Assembly (NCBI RefSeq): GCF_016522505.1
Contig: NZ_JAEHOH010000008.1
Location: forward strand, 1-64,000
Reading direction: 5' to 3'
Source of the DNA: Leucobacter chromiisoli
GTDB taxonomy: Bacteria > Actinomycetota > Actinomycetes > Actinomycetales > Microbacteriaceae
Length of the DNA: 64,000 nt
Every line of letters starts with the position of its first letter. The stretch's first letter is position 1. Below, piece after piece: positions 45,676 to 54,635 of this stretch. A program made the translations under genes and the position numbers. Below the pieces are notes generated by a model. That model made no database searches. It was not told the DNA's origin and saw only the letters and a list, made by a program, of their open reading frames with translations.

Positions 45676-46110
45676 ATGCGCTCACTCATCCGTGTCCTCG
45701 TCAGCGCGTTCGCGCTGTGGCTCACCACGCTCATCGTCGGCGGCAGCGGCGAGAACGGCGTCTGGATCCGGCCGATCAGCGACGACCCGCTCGATCCGAC
45801 CGCCGACTACCGCTTCGGCTACATCGTCACCCTCATCCTGGTGGCCCTCGTGTTCGGTCTGGTGAACGGCACCCTGGGCAAGGTCGTGCGATTCGTCTCG
45901 ATCCCGCTCTACATCATCACGCTGGGGCTGTTCGGCCTCATCGTGAACGGGCTCATGTTCGCGGTCGTCGCGTGGCTCTCGGACCTCGCGGGCTTCGGTC
46001 TCGTCGTCGACGGCTTCTGGTGGGGCGTGCTCGCGGCCCTCGTGATGTCGGTGCTCTCGGGCCTGATGAACGCCCTGCTCGGCACCGGCAAGCGCCGGGA
46101 TCGCGACTGA
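45676..46110 (+). CDS. Phage-holin-family (four-helix) membrane protein
   Basis: 144-residue protein with four hydrophobic helices: about residues 5-24, 48-68, 75-95 and 112-135. It resembles the chromosomal Phage_holin_4_2 group of actinobacteria and cyanobacteria. LVNGTLGKVVRFVSIPLYIIT is typical. Despite the name there is no prophage here, and the role in the host is unknown. CAGACT (45664-45669) lies 6 nt before the ATG with no ribosome site, so it is probably leaderless. Confidence 0.85.
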   Translation: MRSLIRVLVSAFALWLTTLIVGGSGENGVWIRPISDDPLDPTADYRFGYIVTLILVALVFGLVNGTLGKVVRFVSIPLYIITLGLFGLIVNGLMFAVVAWLSDLAGFGLVVDGFWWGVLAALVMSVLSGLMNALLGTGKRRDRD

Positions 46111-46155
46111 GCCCCGCGCGGCGCGGCCAGTCGACACCGGCCGGGCGCTCGACCG

Positions 46156-47103
46156 TCAGACCGACGGCTGCACGCCGAACTCCTCGGCGAACCTCTGCAC
46201 CTGGTCGACGGTCGCGATGCCGCCGTTCGGTCCCATGTGCATGACGGAACGGGACGCCGCGGCCACCGCGAACGCCATCGCGCGCTGCAGCGGCCAGCCC
46301 TCTCCCAGCGCGAACACCAGGGCTCCGCCCAGGGTGTCCCCGGCTCCGGTCACGTCGACGACGGGAACGCGATAGCCCGACACGACGTGGGTCCCCTCGC
46401 GCGTGTACCCCGTGGCGCCGGCCGCCGCCTGCGAGCGCAGCAGCACCTCCACCTCGTTGTCGTCCAACCACGCCCGGACATCGGCCTCTGCACCGTCGGC
46501 GCCGAAGGACTTCTCGAAGCCTCGGTCGTTCATCATCACGAGATGCGCACCGCGGAGCAGGGCGAGATCCCCGTCCTCGAGACCCTCGACGTCGAGGTCG
46601 AACACGAGCCGACGTCCGGAGCCGCGAAGCGTCTGCAGCACCGAGACGGCGTCGGCGGCCCCGCAGCGGAGCCGTTCGGCCCGGTTGAGGGTCGTGTACA
46701 GGTAGCCGGGCCGGGCGAGTTCGCCGAGCGATTCCGCCGGAATCCGCATGGGCCGGTCATCGACGTCCGGGGTGAACACGATGTGCTCCCCTTCCACCAG
46801 GAAGATCAGGTTCCGCGGATCCCCGATCGTCTCGTCGTACAGCATGCGCGGCACCCCGACCCCGCCGCGCTCCAGCGCTGCGAGCATTCGCGCGGTCAGC
46901 TCCCCGCGGTTGAGCAGGGAGACGAACTCCGTCGCTCCGCCGAAGCCGGCGTGCACCCGTGCGGCGTTCGCGATGCTGCCGCCGACATAGCTGTCCAGGG
47001 TCCGGATGAGCGCCTTGTTGCCGGGCATCACCCAGGTGTCCGCCTCGAAGTACTCGTCGAGGGCCACGTCGCCGACGAACACGGCCGGCGCATCGCGCCT
47101 CAT
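46156..47103 (-). CDS. PfkB-family carbohydrate kinase
   Basis: 315-residue ribokinase-fold kinase. The substrate motif is SYVGGSIANAARVHAGFGG (about 39-57). The PfkB signature is VVDVTGAGDTLGGALVFALG, with the catalytic Asp in GAGD near residue 262. The ATG at 47103 overlaps the stop of the AllA-like gene as ATGA; a longer in-frame start lies inside that gene and is rejected. Last gene of the seven-gene 52028-46156 operon. It probably phosphorylates the sugar part of the imported compound. Confidence 0.9.
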   Translation of the reverse strand: MRRDAPAVFVGDVALDEYFEADTWVMPGNKALIRTLDSYVGGSIANAARVHAGFGGATEFVSLLNRGELTARMLAALERGGVGVPRMLYDETIGDPRNLIFLVEGEHIVFTPDVDDRPMRIPAESLGELARPGYLYTTLNRAERLRCGAADAVSVLQTLRGSGRRLVFDLDVEGLEDGDLALLRGAHLVMMNDRGFEKSFGADGAEADVRAWLDDNEVEVLLRSQAAAGATGYTREGTHVVSGYRVPVVDVTGAGDTLGGALVFALGEGWPLQRAMAFAVAAASRSVMHMGPNGGIATVDQVQRFAEEFGVQPSV

Positions 47104-47603
47104 GAATCCACCCGCACGGCGACGGGCCCGCCCTCGATCGCGGTCCAGGGCGAGGAGCCCGAGTCGACGCACGATGCGAGCCAGAAGTAGCCGGTCGGCC
47201 CGTCGAGACCCCGGCACGCGTCGTGCCACACCCCAGGGTCGAGCACGACGACGGTTCCGCACGGGATGACGAAGGCGCGCACGTTCTCGGCGCGCGGAGC
47301 AGCGGTGCCGGTCGGCTCCGCCACCGCGAGCACGAGCGGCGAGCCCGCCGGCACGAGCGCCTCCTCGACGTTGCGGTGGCGTTCCATGCGGGCGCTCGCG
47401 AAGGGCATGCCCGGCGCCCTGGTCATACCGAGGCTCGGCACCTCTCGAGTGAGCGGATCCCGGGTGTATGCGTCGACCCAGCCGTCGCCCTCCGTCAGCA
47501 CCAGTCCCGGGCCCTCTCCCGCGTCGAGCACGTGGACGCGGCCGTACGGCGCGAACGACTCCGCATCGGGGATGGTTGCGGAGACGCTCCGGGCCGCGCT
47601 CAC
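47100..47603 (-). CDS. Ureidoglycolate-lyase-like (AllA family) protein
   Basis: 167-residue cupin-fold protein that resembles AllA. ASARMERHRNVEEALVPAGS (about 67-86) and AFVIPCGTVVVLDPGVWHDA (about 110-129) are the two halves of the AllA-type site, with His in MERH and in WHDA. AllA splits ureidoglycolate in allantoin breakdown, but no other allantoin gene is present, so a different lyase or isomerase activity on the operon's substrate is more likely. The GTG start at 47603 overlaps the BtpA gene as GTGA. Confidence 0.8.
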   Translation of the reverse strand: MSAARSVSATIPDAESFAPYGRVHVLDAGEGPGLVLTEGDGWVDAYTRDPLTREVPSLGMTRAPGMPFASARMERHRNVEEALVPAGSPLVLAVAEPTGTAAPRAENVRAFVIPCGTVVVLDPGVWHDACRGLDGPTGYFWLASCVDSGSSPWTAIEGGPVAVRVDS

Positions 47604-48376
47604 AGCGAGGCCCTCACCGCGTCGACCGCGGTCATGAATCGCGCGACGTGCTCGGCGTCGACGACGCCCGTGTCGCGGTAGCTGTCCTTGAAGAAGCTCC
47701 CGACGATCGCACCGTCGGCGTAGCGGAACTGCTCCGCCGCGTTCCCGTCCGTGACGCCCGCGCCGACGATCAGCGGGAACTCCTCGGGCAGGACGCTCCG
47801 GAAGCGCCGGATCTTCGAGAGATCGGTCTCTACGCCCGTCCCCTCCCCGGTCACCACGATCGCGTCGGAGCGCCTCGCGCCGAGCATGAGATCCTCCTCC
47901 TCCGAGCGACCGGATTCGACCGGCTGGTACTTGAAGCGGACTCCTCCGAACACGAGCGCCGGGCTCGCGACGCGGAGTTCGGCGAGCTCAGCCGCGTACT
48001 CGAGGTCCGCATCGGCGGCGAGATGTCCCGCGACCGAGTCGATCTGCACGAAGCCGACGGGGAACTCGGCGGCGAGCGCGAAGGCGAGACGGTGATCCCG
48101 CAGCACGTTGAGGCCGATGACCGTGCCCCCGAGCTCCGATGCCGTCGAGAGCGCCTCGAGCGCGCGCCTCGCATCGTCCGCATCGCCGAAGTAGTTCTCG
48201 ACGATCACCGCATCGACTCCGCCGTGGGCGAGGATCCTCGCCTCCTCGCGCGCGCGGTGCAGACGGTCCGCGGCGTCGTCGCCGCCGAGGTGGAGCATCG
48301 CGAGGACGGCCTTCGGCGTCGGGAACAGCTCCTCCCACGCGGCGCGCGCGGTCTCGGCTCGCACGACCTCGTTCAC
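47600..48376 (-). CDS. BtpA/SgcQ-family TIM-barrel protein
   Basis: 258-residue protein of the BtpA/SgcQ family. Segments are AVLAMLHLGGDD, GGVDAVIVENYFGDADD, GFVQIDSVAGHLAADADLEY, GGVRFKYQPVES, IVVTGEGTGVETDLSKI and LIVGAGVTDGNAAEQFRYAD. The glycine-rich VTGEGTG and VGAGVT loops look like a phosphate-binding site, which suits action on a phosphorylated product of the PfkB kinase. The family is poorly characterised; E. coli SgcQ sits in a cryptic sugar operon. The GTG start at 48376 overlaps the permease stop as GTGA. Confidence 0.88.
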   Translation of the reverse strand: MNEVVRAETARAAWEELFPTPKAVLAMLHLGGDDAADRLHRAREEARILAHGGVDAVIVENYFGDADDARRALEALSTASELGGTVIGLNVLRDHRLAFALAAEFPVGFVQIDSVAGHLAADADLEYAAELAELRVASPALVFGGVRFKYQPVESGRSEEEDLMLGARRSDAIVVTGEGTGVETDLSKIRRFRSVLPEEFPLIVGAGVTDGNAAEQFRYADGAIVGSFFKDSYRDTGVVDAEHVARFMTAVDAVRASL

Positions 48377-49101
48377 AGTCCGACCCCTTCCTTCGCCTTG
48401 ACCGTCGCCCTCGCCCTCGCCTGCTGCGAGGTCCACCTGAAGCGCTTCTCGAGCACGCTCTGCGCGAGCATGATGAGCGAGACGATGACCAGGTAGTAGA
48501 TGATCGCGACGGCGTAGTACTCGGCGTACCGGAAGGTCGCCTGCACGCCGATGGTCGCGACCCGCATGAGCTCCTGGAGCGAGATGACGCTCGCGATCGC
48601 GGTGAGCTTCAAGAGCGCCACGAGTTCGTTGCCGAGCGAAGGGATCGCGATCCGAGTGGCCTGCGGCACGACGACCTTGAAGAAGGCCTGGATCGGCGTC
48701 ATGCCGAGGGCCCGGGCCGCGAGGCGCTGTCCGTCATCGACCGCCATGAGCGCCGAGCGGAGCATCTCGGCGACGTAGGCCGCCTCGCTCACGCCGAGGG
48801 CGAGGATCGCCGCGACGAACGGGGTGTACCACTCGCCCCGGAACAGGGGGAAGAGCTGCGGCAGCGCGTTCCAGCAGATGACGAGCAGCAGCATCGAGGG
48901 CATCGCCCGGAAGAACCACAGGTACGTGTTCGCCGAGGCGAGAGCGACCTTGCTCTGCGATCGTTTCAGGAGCGCCATGACGAGGCCGATGGCGACCGCC
49001 AGCACGAGACTGCCGAGCGCGACCAGGGCCGCGATGAGGGCTCCCTGCAGGTAGACCGGGGAGCTCAACTGCTCCCAGAAGGTGGACGGATCGAAGCTCA
49101 T
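48373..49101 (-). CDS. Polar-amino-acid-type ABC importer permease
   Basis: 242-residue HisM/GlnP-family permease with five or so helices. Family motifs are TYLWFFRAMPSMLLLVICWN and the EAA-loop equivalent RLAARALGMTPIQAFFKVVV (about 125-144). It is the only permease in the operon, so the channel is a homodimer. The 52-nt gap to the binding-protein gene is the largest but one in the operon. Confidence 0.93.
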   Translation of the reverse strand: MSFDPSTFWEQLSSPVYLQGALIAALVALGSLVLAVAIGLVMALLKRSQSKVALASANTYLWFFRAMPSMLLLVICWNALPQLFPLFRGEWYTPFVAAILALGVSEAAYVAEMLRSALMAVDDGQRLAARALGMTPIQAFFKVVVPQATRIAIPSLGNELVALLKLTAIASVISLQELMRVATIGVQATFRYAEYYAVAIIYYLVIVSLIMLAQSVLEKRFRWTSQQARARATVKAKEGVGL

Positions 49102-49153
49102 TTCAACCTCACTCGGGGGGTGCCCCGCGCTTCCGCACGGGGCACCCGATCGG

Positions 49154-50011
49154 TTACAGCGCCTGGGTGTCCACCTCGGCGACGTCGTCGGGGTTCAGTC
49201 CGTACTCCTCGGCGAGCTCCTGGAGGGTTCCGTTCTCGATGAGCGTGTGAACGGCCTCCTCGAACACGGGCGAGAACTCGCTGCCCTTGTCGGTGTAGGC
49301 CCCGAACCAGTAGTCGGCGGGGAAGAGCCCCGGGACCGGGGTGAGGTCGTCGTTCTTCATACCGAGCGTGGCGGCGAGCACCGTGGTGTCCACGAGCCCG
49401 TCGAGCTTGCCGCTGCGGATCGCGGGAATCGCATCGACCGATCCCGGGTAGCCGGTGACCTCGATCTCCGGCTTCCCCTCAGCGACGCACTGCTCGCTGA
49501 CCTCCTTCACGTGGGATTCGTCCTCGGTCCCGGTCTGCGCGGCGAGCTTGAGACCGCAGAGGTCGAGGGGCTCCGCGACCTTCTCGGCGATCTCGTTCCG
49601 CAGCACCGCCTGGGTGCCCGTCCGCAGCACCGGAACGGCGTCGGCGACCTGCGTGCGCTCCTCGTTGACGTACATGCCCGACCAGGCGACGTCGCACTTG
49701 CCGGCCTGCAGCCCCGGGATCAGGCCGTCGAAGTCCATGACGTTGACCTTGGTCTCGACTCCGAGCAGCTTCCCGACCTCGCGCACGCCGTCGACGTCCC
49801 AGCCGATCACCTCGCCGCTCGTCCCGTTCTCGTAGTACTCGAGCGGTTCGTAGCTCAGTGCGACGCAGGCGTTGAGCACTTCGGGGTTGTTGAGCCCGGC
49901 AGGGCCCTCTCCATCGCCGGCCTCGTCAGCTCCCGAGCTGCAGGCCACCAGGGTGGCGGTCAGCGCGGAGACCGCGGCGATGCCGAGCAGTGCCTTCTTG
50001 CGGTGTTGCAT
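49154..50011 (-). CDS. Polar-amino-acid-type binding lipoprotein
   Basis: 285-residue SBP_bac_3-family binding protein. The signal peptide ends in LVAC (Cys24). The fold shows YEPLEYYENGTSGEVIGWDV, FDGLIPGLQAGKCDVAWSGM and LAAQTGTEDESHVKEVSEQC. Four further cysteines (in NACVAL, GKCDV, DLCGL and SEQC) could form two disulfides. The family binds amino acids, opines and also sugar-amino-acid conjugates. The start at 50011 gives the lipoprotein signal, with GAAGGAG before it. Confidence 0.9.
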   Translation of the reverse strand: MQHRKKALLGIAAVSALTATLVACSSGADEAGDGEGPAGLNNPEVLNACVALSYEPLEYYENGTSGEVIGWDVDGVREVGKLLGVETKVNVMDFDGLIPGLQAGKCDVAWSGMYVNEERTQVADAVPVLRTGTQAVLRNEIAEKVAEPLDLCGLKLAAQTGTEDESHVKEVSEQCVAEGKPEIEVTGYPGSVDAIPAIRSGKLDGLVDTTVLAATLGMKNDDLTPVPGLFPADYWFGAYTDKGSEFSPVFEEAVHTLIENGTLQELAEEYGLNPDDVAEVDTQAL

Positions 50012-50110
50012 GGTATCTCCTTCGATTCCTTCTGGTTTCAGTGCGGTGAGCGCCTCTCGTGCTGCCGGGCAACGAGCGCGTCGGTCGGCGCGGCCCACCC
50101 GGCGCCGCCT

Positions 50111-51259
50111 TCAGCCGGAGCCGAGCAGCCCGGCTCGCTGACGGTCCAGCTCGGCCCACACATCGCTCGAGTTCTTCAGCTCGTGCAGCAGCATGAGCTC
50201 GTGCCGCTCGGCGATGCTCGCGAGCATGTCGCGGACGTCGGAACCGCCGAGCACCCCGTCCCCCAGCGGCACATGGTTGTCGTAGTGGTCGAGGACGATG
50301 CGGAGCCCCTCCTCCTGCTGGGCCTCCCGGCCGCCCTCCACCGCGTACGCCTCATCGAGCACGCCGTTGCGGAAGTACTCGAAATCCTTGGGGGTGCAGT
50401 CGGAGAGGTGGATCGCCGAGACCCGGTCGACGAGTCGCGCATCGAGCACGTTCCGCCTGATCCACATGGCGGAGAGCACCTCGATGTCGCCATCCGCCTG
50501 CTCCTCGATCTCGCGCATCGAGGGGGTCAGCTCGGCCTCGGGCAGGAGGAACGCCCCGCGTCCGCCGGAGGTGCCCGTCGCGTGCAGCAGATGGTTGAGA
50601 TCCCACCCGATGCGCAGACGCCCCGTCCGGTCGTAGACCCGCGCGAGCACCTCAGCGAAGTCGTCGGCGGTCTGGGCGCCGAACTCGAGGCCCCAACCTG
50701 CGTTCTCGAGCTCGATGATCGGCGAATCCTCGTCGACGAGCCCGTGATCGTCCAGCACTCGCAGGAACCGCTGCACGAGGACGATCATGGCGTCGAGGAC
50801 GACCCGGCGGTCGACCGTGAACTCCCAGGCCCCGTCGACCGGCATGTAGTCGATGAGGTGGAAGACGTAGGCGTCGGCTCCGAGATCGCGGGCGAGCGCG
50901 TACTCGTCGCGCCAGCGCGAGAACATGTGCTCGCCGGTGAGATCGCCGAAGTACTCGCGCAGCTGCTCGAGTCCGGCGAACCGTCCCACCAGCTCGCCGA
51001 ATCCGACGTTGCCGACGAAGGCCGTCGGTGCGGCCCAGTACGAGGCGTGGATCCGGCGGGTCTTCGCGGCGCGGAGTCGCGCGAGCAGCTCGGCGCGCTC
51101 CTCCTCGTCGTCGGCGAGCGGCAGCGTCCGCGTTTTGAGGTCGGCCATGAAGACCTCGGAACCTCGTATGCCGCGGATCCGGATGGCCTCTCCTGCGGCG
51201 GTGAGGTCGTCCGGTCGGCAGGTGACGTACTCGGCGACGCCGGGCAGATCAGTGCACAT
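50111..51259 (-). CDS. Xylose-isomerase-like TIM-barrel protein
   Basis: 382-residue AP endonuclease 2/sugar-isomerase-like barrel. Candidate metal residues are the Glu in IIELENAGWGLEFG, Asp/His in IGWDLNHLLH, His in VSAIHLSDCT and Glu in MLLHELKNSS. The family includes isomerases, epimerases and dehydratases of sugars and cyclitols. Its start overlaps the end of the ATPase gene by 11 nt. GGAGG precedes the ATG at 51259. The reaction is unknown. Confidence 0.82.
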   Translation of the reverse strand: MCTDLPGVAEYVTCRPDDLTAAGEAIRIRGIRGSEVFMADLKTRTLPLADDEEERAELLARLRAAKTRRIHASYWAAPTAFVGNVGFGELVGRFAGLEQLREYFGDLTGEHMFSRWRDEYALARDLGADAYVFHLIDYMPVDGAWEFTVDRRVVLDAMIVLVQRFLRVLDDHGLVDEDSPIIELENAGWGLEFGAQTADDFAEVLARVYDRTGRLRIGWDLNHLLHATGTSGGRGAFLLPEAELTPSMREIEEQADGDIEVLSAMWIRRNVLDARLVDRVSAIHLSDCTPKDFEYFRNGVLDEAYAVEGGREAQQEEGLRIVLDHYDNHVPLGDGVLGGSDVRDMLASIAERHELMLLHELKNSSDVWAELDRQRAGLLGSG

Positions 51260-52028
51260 GGCGGAGGAACTCCTTCGTGCGCTTGTTCCGCGGGTTCTCG
51301 AAGAAGCCCTCGGGCTCCTGCTGCTCGACGATGACGCCCTCGTCGAAGAGCACCACCTCGTCGGCCACCCGCCGCGCGAAACGGGTCTCATGGGTGACCA
51401 CGAGCATGGTCATGCCCTCGCGGGCGAGATCCTCCATCACCCGGAGCACCTCGCCGACGAGCTCCGGATCGAGCGCGCTGGTCGGCTCGTCGAAGAGCAT
51501 GAGCTTCGGATCCATCACGAGAGCGCGGGCGATCGCGACACGCTGCTGCTGACCGCCCGAGAGCTCCGAGGGGTACTTGTGGGCGTGGGCGCCGAGACCC
51601 ACGCGCTCGAGCATCATCACCGCTCGCTCCTCGGCCTCCTTGTGCGAGGCGCGGCGCACGGTGGTGAGCCCGCTCATGACGTTCCTGACCGCGTTCAGGT
51701 GCGGGAACAGGTTGAACTGCTGGAACACCATGCCGACGACCTGACGCTGCTTGGCGAGGATGCGCTCGGGCGCGGGGCGGGGCGCGTCGGCTCTTCCCGT
51801 GAAGCCCAGCTGCTTTCCGTCGATCTCGATGGTGCCCGCATCGGCCCGCTCGAGCAGGTTGATGAGTCGCAGGGTCGTCGACTTCCCCGAACCGCTGGGG
51901 CCGAGCATCGCCTTGACCTGGCCCGGTCGGATGGAGAGATCGACGCCGCGCAGCACGGCCTTGTCGCCGTAGCTCTTGTGCAGATTCCGCGCGTCGAGCA
52001 GGGGCGGTGATTCGGCGGTGACGTCCAC
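51249..52028 (-). CDS. Polar-amino-acid-type ABC importer ATP-binding protein
   Basis: 259-residue ATPase of the GlnQ/HisP type. Walker A is GPSGSGKST (43-51), the Q-loop is GMVFQQFNLFPHLNAV, the signature is ELSGGQQQRVAIARAL, Walker B is KLMLFDEPTSALDPE, and the switch histidine is in VVTHETRFARR. A GTG start at 52028 is chosen because GGAGGG lies 4 nt before it and the family begins about here. First gene of the operon, divergent from the Lrp regulator. Confidence 0.94.
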   Translation of the reverse strand: MDVTAESPPLLDARNLHKSYGDKAVLRGVDLSIRPGQVKAMLGPSGSGKSTTLRLINLLERADAGTIEIDGKQLGFTGRADAPRPAPERILAKQRQVVGMVFQQFNLFPHLNAVRNVMSGLTTVRRASHKEAEERAVMMLERVGLGAHAHKYPSELSGGQQQRVAIARALVMDPKLMLFDEPTSALDPELVGEVLRVMEDLAREGMTMLVVTHETRFARRVADEVVLFDEGVIVEQQEPEGFFENPRNKRTKEFLRHVH

Positions 52029-52176
52029 GGGCCCTCCTTCGGGTATCGATCGCCCCGAGCAGGACCGGGGCGACGACTCAACAGTAGAGGCGGAGGACAC
52101 CGCCGTCGAGAGCATAGATGCAGTGATCCTGGCTCAGTCGCGTCATTTTTCGCAGAATGGACCAGATAGAACACAA

Positions 52177-52224
52177 TTGACGTGCTTCACAGGCTCCTAT
52201 ACTGTAAAACTGCTCACTTCCCAA
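52177..52224. promoter_or_regulatory. Overlapping divergent promoters
   Basis: Plus strand: TTGACG (52177-52182), 17 nt, TACTGT (52200-52205), driving the Lrp gene. Minus strand: TTGGGA (52224-52219), 17 nt, TATAGG (52201-52196), driving the ATPase-led operon. The two -10 elements share bases 52200-52201, so RNA polymerase probably cannot occupy both at once. The surrounding 52029-52261 gap is noticeably AT-rich for this genome. Confidence 0.7.
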
Positions 52225-52261
52225 CTGAAGATTCTTTATAACGAATCGGTGACGAAGGGCG

Positions 52262-53161
52262 ATGACGATGGAGTTCGACGGAGCACTCATCAATGCACTG
52301 CGCGACAATGGGCGCCTCTCCGTCAGCGAGCTGGCCCGCCGCCTGCAGCTGCCGCGCCGCCGCGTGCAGGAGCGCATGCACGCGCTGCTGGACAGCGGGG
52401 AGATGCGCATCATCGCCAATGTCCATCCGGCGCTGCTCGGCATCCGAACATTCTGCGACGTGCTCATCTGGGTCGACGGCTCGGTGGCCCCGGTGATCGA
52501 GGGGCTGCGCGCCTTCCGCGAGACGACGTTCATCACCTCGGTGGCCGGCAACTGCGACGTCGTCGTCGAGGTGAGCGCGGAGGACGACGACCATCTGTCA
52601 GACCTCCTGATGCGCATCCGCGCGCTGCCCGGCGTGCGCGAGACCGTGAACTCGCAGCTGCTCCAGATCCATAAGAGCCGGTTCGACACGGGCGGAGGCA
52701 CGGGCGGAGACACCGACGCAAGCGCCTTTCACACCCCCGATGACCACGACACCCGCATCATCTCGCTGCTGCGCACCGACGGCAGGATGCCCTACCGCGA
52801 GCTCAGCCGCGAGGTCGGGCTGTCGATCGGCGCGATCCGTGCGCGGGTGAAACGGCTGACGGACAGCGGAAGGCTTCGGATCACCTGCGAGCTGCAGGAG
52901 CCGGGGGTCACCCCGCGCATGCAGCTCGGAGCCAGCCTCAGACTGTGCGGCGAGGGCCACGGACTCGTCGAGGCGCTGTGCGCGATCCCCGCGGTCGAGT
53001 TCGTCGCCCGTTCGGTGGGGCACTTCGACATCGTGATGACGCTCTCGGGGGCGACACCGCACGCGCTCCACACCGTGCTGGATGAGATCCGGATGCTCGA
53101 CGACGTCGGCAGCGTGACCTCGTGGATGCATCTCGAGGTGTTCCGGGAGAGCTACGAGTAA
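52262..53161 (+). CDS. Two-module Lrp/AsnC-family regulator
   Basis: 299 residues made of two Lrp units in tandem. The first helix-turn-helix is in RLSVSELARRLQLPRRRVQE (about 18-37), followed by a RAM-like effector domain. The second helix-turn-helix is in RMPYRELSREVGLSIGAIRA near 178-197 with its own C-terminal domain. A Gly/Thr-rich linker joins them near residues 143-155. Translation may start at ATG 52262 or 52268; GAAGGGC precedes both. It diverges from the 52028-46156 operon and is its likely regulator. Confidence 0.92.
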   Translation: MTMEFDGALINALRDNGRLSVSELARRLQLPRRRVQERMHALLDSGEMRIIANVHPALLGIRTFCDVLIWVDGSVAPVIEGLRAFRETTFITSVAGNCDVVVEVSAEDDDHLSDLLMRIRALPGVRETVNSQLLQIHKSRFDTGGGTGGDTDASAFHTPDDHDTRIISLLRTDGRMPYRELSREVGLSIGAIRARVKRLTDSGRLRITCELQEPGVTPRMQLGASLRLCGEGHGLVEALCAIPAVEFVARSVGHFDIVMTLSGATPHALHTVLDEIRMLDDVGSVTSWMHLEVFRESYE

Positions 53162-53249
53162 CGTCTCCCGCCCCCGGCCTGCCCGGGCGGGAGCATGGGA
53201 GAATGGACAGCGGCCCGCGATCCGCCCCCGACACTCCGGAGACCCGCAC

Positions 53250-54635
53250 ATGACGACACTGCCCCCGCAGCCCATCAGCCCCCTCGACGGACGCTACCGC
53301 GCCCCCGTCTCGCCCCTCGGCGACTTCCTCTCGGAGGCGGGGCTCAACAAGGCTCGCGTGCACGTCGAGGTCGAGTGGCTCGCCTACCTGACCTCCCACT
53401 CGCTGCTGGGGGCGACGCCCCTCGACCAGTCGCAGCTCGCCGAGCTCCGCGCCTGGGCGGCCGGGTTCGGGCAGGCCGAGATCGACCGGCTCGCCGAGAT
53501 CGAGGCGACGACGCAGCACGATGTGAAGGCCGTCGAGTACCTCGTGCGCGAGCAGCTGTCGCGGCAGGGTCTCGACGCCGTCTCCGAGCTCACGCACGTC
53601 TGCTGCACCAGCGAAGACATCAACAACCTCTCGTACGCCCTCACCGTCAAGCAGGCGATCCAGCAGGTCTGGCGACCGGCCTTCGAGACCGTGATCTCCG
53701 AGATCGCGCGCCAGGCCGAGCAGTACCGCGAGCTGCCGATGATGAGCCGCACGCACGGCCAGCCCGCCACGCCGACCACGCTCGGCAAGGAGCTCGCGGT
53801 GTTCGTGCACCGCCTCGAGCGCCAGCTGAACCAGATCGACGATATCGAGTACCTCGGCAAGTTCTCGGGGGCGACCGGCACCTTCGCCGCGCACCTCGCG
53901 GCCGATCCCGACACCGACTGGACGCGGGTGTCCCAGGAGTTCGTCGAGGGCCTCGGCCTCGACTGGAATCCGCTCACCACCCAGATCGAGTCGCACGACT
54001 GGCAGGCGGAGCTCTACACCCGCGTCGCCCACGCCAACCGGATCCTGCACAATCTGGCGACCGACATCTGGAGCTACATCTCCATCGGCTACTTCCGCCA
54101 GATCCCCGTCAAGGGCGCCACGGGCTCCTCGACCATGCCGCACAAGGTCAACCCGATCCGCTTCGAGAACGCCGAGGCCAACCTCGAGCTCTCGAACGCG
54201 ATCCTCGACTCCCTCGCGGCCACGCTCGTGACGAGCCGCTGGCAGCGCGACCTCACCGACTCCTCGGCGCAGCGCAACATCGGCGTCGGCCTGGGCCACT
54301 CGGTGCTCGCGCTCGACAACATCCGCCGCGGGCTCGGCCAGATCGACGCGGCGCCCGAGGTGCTCGCCGCGGACCTCGACGCCAACTGGGAGGTGCTGGG
54401 GGAGGCGATCCAGACCGTCATCCGCGCCGAGGTGACGGCGGGCCGCTCGACCATCGCCGATCCGTACGCCGTGCTCAAGGAGCTGACCCGGGATCGCCGG
54501 ATCGGCCAGGCCGAGCTCGTCGAGTTCGTGGGCGGCCTCGAGATCGGGGAAGAGGCGAAGCGTCGGCTGCTCGCCCTCACCCCCTCGACGTACATCGGCG
54601 ACGCCGTGCGGCTCGTCGACTACCTCAAGCGTTAG
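53250..54635 (+). CDS. purB: Adenylosuccinate lyase
   Basis: 461-residue fumarase-superfamily enzyme that releases fumarate from SAICAR and from adenylosuccinate in purine synthesis. The signature loop is GSSTMPHKVNPIRFENAEAN near residues 290-309, and the catalytic histidine regions are STEDIN-like CCTSEDINNL and MSRTHGQPATPTTLGKE. The opening SPLDGRYRAPVSPLGDFLSE is that of the E. coli-type enzyme, and the length matches it. CGGAG precedes the ATG by 9 nt. Confidence 0.97.
   Translation: MTTLPPQPISPLDGRYRAPVSPLGDFLSEAGLNKARVHVEVEWLAYLTSHSLLGATPLDQSQLAELRAWAAGFGQAEIDRLAEIEATTQHDVKAVEYLVREQLSRQGLDAVSELTHVCCTSEDINNLSYALTVKQAIQQVWRPAFETVISEIARQAEQYRELPMMSRTHGQPATPTTLGKELAVFVHRLERQLNQIDDIEYLGKFSGATGTFAAHLAADPDTDWTRVSQEFVEGLGLDWNPLTTQIESHDWQAELYTRVAHANRILHNLATDIWSYISIGYFRQIPVKGATGSSTMPHKVNPIRFENAEANLELSNAILDSLAATLVTSRWQRDLTDSSAQRNIGVGLGHSVLALDNIRRGLGQIDAAPEVLAADLDANWEVLGEAIQTVIRAEVTAGRSTIADPYAVLKELTRDRRIGQAELVEFVGGLEIGEEAKRRLLALTPSTYIGDAVRLVDYLKR

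Follow-up and report, generated by a model that had tools for sequence, protein, structure and literature searches.

The gene cluster and its regulator

The DNA analysed here, hereafter the window, is a 64,000-nt stretch of Leucobacter chromiisoli (contig NZ_JAEHOH010000008.1, positions 1 to 64,000; host genome of 3.35 Mb in 42 contigs) in which seven co-directional genes encode an ATP-binding cassette (ABC) importer of the polar-amino-acid (PAAT) class and four enzyme-like proteins, here named T, B, C and K, beside a divergent tandem Lrp regulator. Judging from sequence comparisons, this operon probably imports an acidic sugar-linked compound and degrades it after phosphorylation. A preliminary description, made from the letters of the window, had reported the seven linked genes and the regulator, and we found all of them at the places it gave, with three 4-nt overlaps and the Pfam families confirmed. 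The features are:

51249..52028 (-), ABC ATPase, polar-amino-acid class (ABC_tran, 4.4e-35; GlnQ/EhuA-like, under those equivalog cut-offs)
50111..51259 (-), T, xylose-isomerase-fold TIM barrel, possible epimerase/isomerase (sub-cut-off AP_endonuc_2 match and fold search)
49154..50011 (-), SBP_bac_3 lipoprotein, the substrate-binding protein (SBP) (Pfam 1.1e-22; carboxylate-type Arg119 kept)
48373..49101 (-), single ABC permease, HEQRo type (BPD_transp_1, 3.7e-23; TIGR01726, 55.9 bits against a cut-off of 42.2)
about 47600..48376 (-), B, BtpA/SgcQ-type phosphate-binding TIM barrel (PF03437, 1.7e-23)
47100..47603 (-), C, AllA-like metal cupin (Ureidogly_lyase PF04115, 3.4e-7)
46156..47103 (-), K, PfkB-family sugar kinase with possible acid-site Arg144 (PF00294, 6.2e-24)
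52262..53161 (+), tandem Lrp/AsnC regulator, divergent and probably local (two HTH_AsnC-type and two AsnC_trans_reg stretches)
52230..52247 (strand not assigned), near-palindrome GATTCGTTATAAAGAATC, a probable Lrp operator (kept in four of four divergent regions)

Transcription on the minus strand (52028-46156) follows the order ATPase, T, SBP, permease, B, C, K. Overlaps of 4 nt join the permease gene to B, B to C and C to K, and the ATPase and T genes overlap by 11 nt as read directly from the sequence; gaps of 99 nt and 52 nt separate T from the SBP gene and the SBP gene from the permease gene, respectively. The start of T is our choice, and the GTG start of the ATPase gene was picked because the AAGGAGGG site before it is conserved in four of four clusters. 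Promoter and terminator scans of 45900-53300 returned none.

The regulator (299 aa) starts 233 nt from the ATPase gene on the opposite strand and is present in all four full clusters known to us. Its two helix-turn-helix and two AsnC ligand-domain stretches place it in the Lrp/AsnC family and bear out the earlier identification of a tandem Lrp. The 18-bp near-palindrome has three variable positions across the four divergent regions, whose mean column identity over the whole region is 65%, and with up to two mismatches allowed the 3.35-Mb genome has no second copy. Since it is conserved within a variable region and unique in the genome, a dedicated operator is the natural reading, and we regard it as the probable Lrp site.

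The B-C-K unit and its distribution

Forty-three loci were examined, and four duplicates with identical aligned B (L105, L106, L110 and L111) were set aside, leaving 39 distinct loci. B, C and K are contiguous in 37 of these, and 36 of the 37 adjoin one or more importer genes (a binding protein at minimum), the exception being L103. These counts support the proposal that enzymes and importer belong together, for which a co-occurrence search had been suggested. The neighbouring importer is of the PAAT class in 35 loci and of the SBP_bac_8/POT type in L102. By type, there are four loci with the Leucobacter arrangement, 26 rhizobial loci and five with the order GntR-B-C-K-SBP, beside which no permease or ATPase match was found, plus L102, L103, L034 and L104. 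GntR-UTRA regulators accompany two of the three PAAT groups, the rhizobial and the second actinobacterial types.

The full eight-gene arrangement, seven genes and Lrp, recurs in L033 (from a second genus of the family), L042 and L059. With this order kept in three more genomes, and B, C and K adjacent in all but two of the 39 loci, the gene set is not a chance assembly. Where the preliminary description treated the seven genes and Lrp as one system, this stands for the B-C-K core, and T and Lrp fall outside what is shared. It had also named, as a sign against its reading, a binding protein that takes only ordinary amino acids together with enzymes conserved apart from the importer, and this is half borne out: the enzymes stay while the importer class changes in L102, L034 and L104. 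B-C-K is a unit, and the class of importer beside it can change while the enzymes remain.

The less common loci differ in their accompanying genes. L102 (1186-11922) comprises a LacI regulator, an SBP_bac_8/POT-type system, an ADI/DDAH-like enzyme (nearest PDB match 2-nitroimidazole nitrohydrolase, 1e-10), a Creatinase_N protein, B-C-K and a GATase1_like protein, and L103 has a Creatinase_N protein followed by B-C-K, with no importer identified. L034 (5397-14843) and L104 (4872-10732) carry B and K, without C, together with energy-coupling-factor (ECF)-type genes, a GATase1_like protein (PF07090) and an M24 peptidase; they resemble a nucleoside-like catabolic cluster. L034 is the only locus with nucleoside hydrolases, of which it has two (IU_nuc_hydro). 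Enzyme types that release nitrogen are therefore represented in two relatives, as ADI/DDAH-like in L102 and as nucleoside hydrolases in L034. GATase1_like proteins recur in L034, L102, L104 and L065, and three versions of the unit coexist in a single genome, G063 (L033, L034 and L035).

A contig scan with B identified 18 relatives, two from Leucobacter and 16 alphaproteobacterial (Rhizobium, Ensifer/Sinorhizobium, Mesorhizobium, Shinella, Tabrizicola and one unclassified Rhizobiales); since its patterns were taken from the B of the window, the scan is biased towards close relatives, and the 18 loci derive from 97 pattern stretches. All 16 alphaproteobacterial relatives have the order permease, ATPase, SBP, GntR, B, C, K. 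Among 72,556 plasmid records, the close B, C and K families each match 14, and these are the identical 14 for all three (10 counted from search rows and four opened, each of the latter with the seven-gene rhizobial order). The plasmid B proteins are 52.7-56.6% identical to the window B (other matches at most 30.9%), the C proteins 56-69% to that of the rhizobial-type locus L049 (others at most 29.3%), and the K proteins 66-77% to the L049 K, with no others at 1e-8.

Counts in genome samples are lower bounds, as few candidates were scored per genome (e.g., six of 44 in the rhizobial-family sample). The B subfamily was detected in 6/299 genomes of the window's family (E < 1e-60), 19/394 of the rhizobial family, 4/54 of the window's genus (one of the C-less type) and 5/5 of a second actinobacterial genus; in class-wide samples of 394 and 385 genomes it occurred in the centre genome only. 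The C subfamily (E < 1e-50) was found in eight of 218 rhizobial-family genomes, all eight B-positive, and in five of 219 genomes of the window's family, four of them B-positive and the fifth being G069. This patchy distribution across two phyla suggests horizontal transfer.

Two further observations concern individual records. In G069 (L113, 4815-18949) the C cupin adjoins, by eye, nucleoside-like ABC genes, with transposase-like genes between it and a generic BtpA-PfkB-ureohydrolase-like cluster (also by eye) about 7 kb away. A record named Roseateles sp. XES5 (L064, flagged UNVERIFIED_ORG) carries the rhizobial seven-gene unit, and its species label may be wrong.

Features of the importer and the enzymes

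The importer is of the polar-amino-acid ABC class by all three components: an SBP_bac_3 binding protein, a HEQRo-type permease and a GlnQ-like ATPase. The arginine aligned to the carboxylate-type Arg119 is present in 35/35 SBPs. We take this position to be the alpha-carboxylate arginine of glutamine-type SBPs and an aligned aspartate to be the holder of the alpha-ammonium group. The aspartate position is glycine in 7/7 rhizobial rows (alignments of the L049 SBP to AncQR and GlnH show the same), is displaced by one residue in the window-type SBP and is retained in 3/3 rows of the second actinobacterial type. As the arginine is constant and the aspartate position variable, an acid group on the ligand is likely and a plain alpha-amino acid is not required; the earlier suggestion of an amino acid or opine ligand is not supported by this pattern. 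Among PDB matches, the rhizobial SBP finds the deoxyfructosyl-amino-acid SBPs 5l9o/5lom (1.1e-11) and the window SBP the nopaline-binding 5ot8 (6.6e-9), and glutamine-type SBPs outscore such conjugate-binding SBPs for both. Mean identity among the three SBP_bac_3 groups is 22-28% for the SBP and, between the two PAAT groups that have both, 32% for the permease and 51% for the ATPase; in the same between-group comparison B, C and K reach 46-53%, 39-45% and 37-47%, respectively.

A profile of 15 K sequences matched the sulfofructose kinase YihV first in the PDB (1.3e-27), with ribokinase next (9.7e-27, seven-fold behind), and Arg144 of K aligns with Arg138 of YihV both with the profile and with the window K alone. 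In the 39 loci, this position is arginine in 37/37 kinases beside C and proline in both kinases without C; the ribokinases 1gqt and 4x8f also carry proline there. K scored 56.1 bits against the ribokinase equivalog (cut-off 299.65) and so falls outside it. Arg144 is a candidate acid-binding residue, and given its presence in all 37 kinases beside C together with the carboxylate-type arginine in 35/35 SBPs, an acidic substrate is probably phosphorylated intact. The sequence of events envisaged by the preliminary description, with the PfkB kinase acting first and the SgcQ-like barrel second, agrees with this arginine if it holds an acid group.

B belongs to PF03437 (83.8 bits, gathering score 30) and lies under the cut-off of the NCBIfam subfamily TIGR00259 (86.7 bits against 153.4). 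Its model has a mean predicted local distance difference test (pLDDT) score of 95.3, and its first 50 fold matches include KDPGal aldolase (top), PcrB, IGPS, HisF and YihT (rank 22), with template modelling scores by query of 0.53-0.65; the likeness to the KDPGal aldolase/HisF class is at the level of the fold and assigns no reaction. Twelve chosen residues, among them His49, Glu80, Asn81, Asn110, Asp133, His138 and Lys169 (numbered from the upstream open reading frame start), are invariant in 39/39 loci. Only some of the twelve are common to generic BtpA proteins. Across five B-subfamily and five generic BtpA proteins 14 columns are invariant, and the subfamily is 25-30% identical to the five generic ones (SgcQ itself lies outside this comparison). 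A photosystem-type BtpA role was rejected (photosystem I equivalog, 66.5 against 400), as was orotidine decarboxylase, for which the PDB sequence matches are short phosphate-motif hits (best 0.0021) and not membership. PF03437 searches were positive in five of 14 control genomes, including those of E. coli, Thermotoga maritima and Methanocaldococcus jannaschii. In the literature searched we found no reaction assigned to the BtpA/SgcQ family, the queries returning mostly unrelated uses of the name.

Generic BtpA genes have varied neighbours. In L023 a BtpA gene directly adjoins dihydroxyacetone-kinase-like genes (by eye), which could hint at BtpA products. The second BtpA gene of genome G000, in L041 (8473-11742; G000:C38), is divergent from an FGGY-type kinase (by eye) and lies beside an inositol-monophosphatase-like gene. 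Another generic BtpA of G063 (L036, 4572-5453 and 8895-9518) has nucleoside-hydrolase-like matches (28-32%) within the same 18 kb. On a Rhizobium tumorigenes plasmid (L065, 3560-12045), generic BtpA is found with ribokinase, phosphotriesterase, a Zn-dependent hydrolase and a sugar ABC system, and the glutamine-amidotransferase-like gene there is 60% identical to that of L102.

C was originally called an AllA-like cupin, and this holds for the fold family: its profile matches AllA at 7.2e-9, and E-R-H and V-W-H motifs are common to both. The likeness stops at a likely metal ligand, as the quartet Glu74/His76/Glu81/His127 is kept in 37/37 C proteins and AllA has glutamine at the Glu81 position. 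Against AllA equivalog models C scored 21.8-29.1 bits, with cut-offs of 212-282, and for both reasons we rejected C as a true AllA in a plain allantoin pathway. Distant AllA homologs of the DUF4867 family occur in sulfoglycolysis and other ketose clusters and are proposed mutarotases; one of these, SqvB, has a 2His-2Glu metal site, and mutarotase activity is proposed, not shown (PMC9594981, PMC11968277). The C quartet has one extra residue between the histidine and the second glutamate relative to the spacing reported for SqvB.

T had been described as an isomerase-like TIM barrel, and its model (from four sequences; mean pLDDT 71.5) agrees, with xylose isomerase and endonuclease IV as the top fold matches and the UlaE epimerase also listed; the Pfam match to AP_endonuc_2 is sub-cut-off (28.6 bits against 31.1). 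T is 71-74% identical in the three other clusters and was matched in three of 16 genomes tested besides that of the window. No match was found in nine rhizobial/Tabrizicola genomes, four genomes of the second actinobacterial genus or any plasmid of the collection. T was accordingly dropped from the shared core, having been found only in the four Leucobacter-type clusters.

Candidate pathways and comparison with known systems

The observations of the preliminary description are thus confirmed and its interpretation is partly supported. Our best model, which we hold tentatively and as possible rather than probable, is a frl-like route for an acid-bearing sugar-nitrogen conjugate of the Amadori or glycosylamine kind, with B and C replacing the deglycase. 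The SBP would hold the carboxylate of the conjugate via Arg119, and K, with Arg144 gripping the acid group, would phosphorylate the sugar of the still intact conjugate. B would then rearrange or cleave the phospho-sugar part, most likely by isomerising an aminoketose to a glycosylamine; other roles compatible with the proposal are an Amadori or aldose-ketose isomerase, or an aldolase, acting on the phosphorylated substrate. C would open the resulting hemiaminal and free the amine, as a hemiaminal/hemiacetal (C-N or ring-opening) lyase; in L034, where C is absent, cleavage of the C-N bond would fall to the nucleoside hydrolases. T, which only the Leucobacter type has, may act as an FrlC-like epimerase and broaden the range of substrates. 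The tandem Lrp would control the operon from its single palindromic site, perhaps in response to the amino product. Amadori rearrangements are known from HisA and TrpF, whose barrels belong to the broad fold class of B, and cleavage of a hemiaminal C-N bond is the reaction of AllA; these two chemistries in succession would make a sensible deglycation. The absence of C from the two ECF-type loci, one with nucleoside hydrolases, fits this model, on a sample of two loci. If the conjugate reading is true, soil and root bacteria would have a new route to use glycated amino acids or opine-like compounds. A stronger claim, that the B subfamily and C form a second, SIS-independent splitter of phosphorylated sugar-amino conjugates (retro-Amadori isomerase plus hemiaminal C-N lyase), we consider unlikely as it stands; if true, the BtpA/SgcQ family would gain a reaction, and the orphan cassette common to rhizobia and actinobacteria would have an explanation.

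Several points weigh against the conjugate model. The rhizobial SBP is without the alpha-ammonium aspartate, and an amino-acid-like ligand is therefore not required; Arg144 of K and Arg119 of the SBP would fit any acidic sugar. Faster evolution of the SBP may account for the divergence of the PAAT groups, so that their separate recruitment is not implied. The window K alone finds 3pl2 (1.3e-13) and KDG kinase (9.4e-12) in the PDB before YihV, third at 1.8e-10. The sulfonate-binding role that we presume for Arg138 of YihV was not found in the papers checked for it. The Arg144 position is glutamine in the ribokinase 3ry7 and glutamate in 3pl2, so proline is not general for neutral-sugar kinases, and the comparison with C-less kinases comprises two loci, one at a contig end. 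Matches to the fructoselysine 6-kinase model are weak (window K, 16 bits, 0.0063; L049 K, 50.9 bits, 1.4e-13; cut-off 247), and the L049 K scores better as a ribokinase (7.3e-24). The frl deglycase FrlB/FraB has the SIS fold, and none of the eight cluster proteins matches the SIS deglycase family in a Pfam scan of the cluster proteins. G069 is a counter-example to the pairing of B and C, carrying a C-subfamily protein (2.0e-55) but no gene of the B subfamily. Finally, the literature searched yielded no biochemical report on any family member.

The nearest competitor is an acidic or modified free sugar (uronate-like, sulfo- or amino-sugar acid) degraded as in the sulfoglycolytic Embden-Meyerhof-Parnas (sulfo-EMP) pathway, with no nitrogen conjugate split; we rate it as somewhat unlikely. 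C would be a mutarotase or ring opener, T an aldose-ketose isomerase, K a ketose kinase and B an aldolase. In keeping with these roles, sulfofructose kinase is the first PDB match of the K profile and KDG kinase the second for the window K alone, the top fold match of B is KDPGal aldolase with YihT at rank 22, and T folds like xylose isomerase. The occurrence of DUF4867 homologs in sulfoglycolysis and ketose clusters, as described in PMC9594981 and PMC11968277, agrees with the Glu/His/Glu/His quartet kept in 37/37 C proteins, but mutarotation by SftX was assayed by its authors and not detected. Importers of the polar-amino-acid class are also unusual for free sugars, no sulfoquinovosidase, sulfolactaldehyde (SLA) reductase or SLA dehydrogenase family is present among the eight cluster proteins, no T match was found in the rhizobial genomes tested, and relatives carry ADI-like and nucleoside hydrolase genes. 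A free acidic sugar explains K, C, B and T about as well as the conjugate does, but is the poorer account of importers of the amino-acid class and of the ADI-like and nucleoside hydrolase genes.

Salvage of a nucleoside or N-riboside, i.e., an acid-bearing ribosylated heterocycle or modified nucleoside for which C replaces the nucleosidase while K and B process the ribose, is in our estimate quite improbable. It draws on the B relative with two IU_nuc_hydro and ECF-type genes in L034, the generic BtpA with ribokinase, glutamine-amidotransferase-like and phosphotriesterase genes in L065, the G069 C adjoining a nucleoside-like ABC system (by eye) and the recurrence of GATase1_like proteins in L034, L102, L104 and L065. 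Yet in the DNA examined, nothing matching the L034 nucleoside hydrolases was found at 38 of the 39 loci (L104 ends at a contig end), and the kinases beside C carry Arg144 with importers of the amino-acid or POT class. Specific ribosyl or modified nucleosides were dropped as substrates, as nothing beyond the L034-type relatives points to them. It is very unlikely that an ordinary amino-acid importer shares the operon with unrelated sugar enzymes by chance: the SBP, permease and ATPase do match glutamine, cystine and ectoine importer models, but all far under the equivalog cut-offs, and in 35 loci the B-C-K trio is accompanied by PAAT genes, which fall into three diverged groups. We give almost no credence to allantoin/ureidoglycolate catabolism with C as a true ureidoglycolate lyase, which is its annotation in the four opened plasmid records, given a best score of 29.1 bits against 212 for AllA, glutamate for the AllA glutamine in 37/37 and the absence of allantoinase, allantoate and urease families from the eight cluster proteins.

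Returning to the sugar-nitrogen conjugate, the closest parallels are the frl and fra operons, which likewise combine an importer, a sugar kinase and an enzyme acting on the phosphorylated conjugate, and share a GntR regulator with the rhizobial and second actinobacterial types. FrlC is a 3-epimerase, as T may be, and presumably of the xylose-isomerase-like class. Unlike frl and fra, our cluster has no SIS deglycase match and has B and C instead, with Lrp in the Leucobacter type and a polar-amino-acid ABC importer. Known Amadori routes use a C-6 kinase and then a deglycase (PMC12632257, PMC4072780), and fructoselysine-6P is the proposed signal sensed by E. coli FrlR (PMC12632257). Sulfo-EMP and sulfofructose transaldolase (sulfo-SFT) clusters with SqvB/SftX (DUF4867) resemble it in a PfkB-type kinase (the K profile leads to YihV), a distant AllA-type cupin and a phosphate-sugar TIM barrel, but our cluster has no sulfoquinovosidase or SLA reductase/dehydrogenase match, B is a BtpA protein and not YihT, and the importer differs. 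AllA shares the PF04115 family with C and differs in having glutamine where C has glutamate; the genomic context of C is not allantoin-like. The soc-type deoxyfructosyl-amino-acid and nopaline binding proteins are of the SBP_bac_3 class as is ours, whereas no amadoriase-type family is represented among the cluster proteins. The E. coli sgcXBCQAER operon also encodes a BtpA/SgcQ protein but differs in its uptake, being described as a phosphotransferase system for an unknown sugar (PMC5797941).

No pathway with this gene set was found in the literature on BtpA/SgcQ, the sgc operon and combinations of these families, in line with the preliminary description, which knew of none. The parts are of known kinds, as the systems above illustrate; what is new is their combination and the recurring B-C-K unit, undescribed in the literature searched. 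With a widespread BtpA/SgcQ family, and a three-gene unit that is found beside different importers and carries residues suggestive of an acid, the question of the reaction becomes testable.

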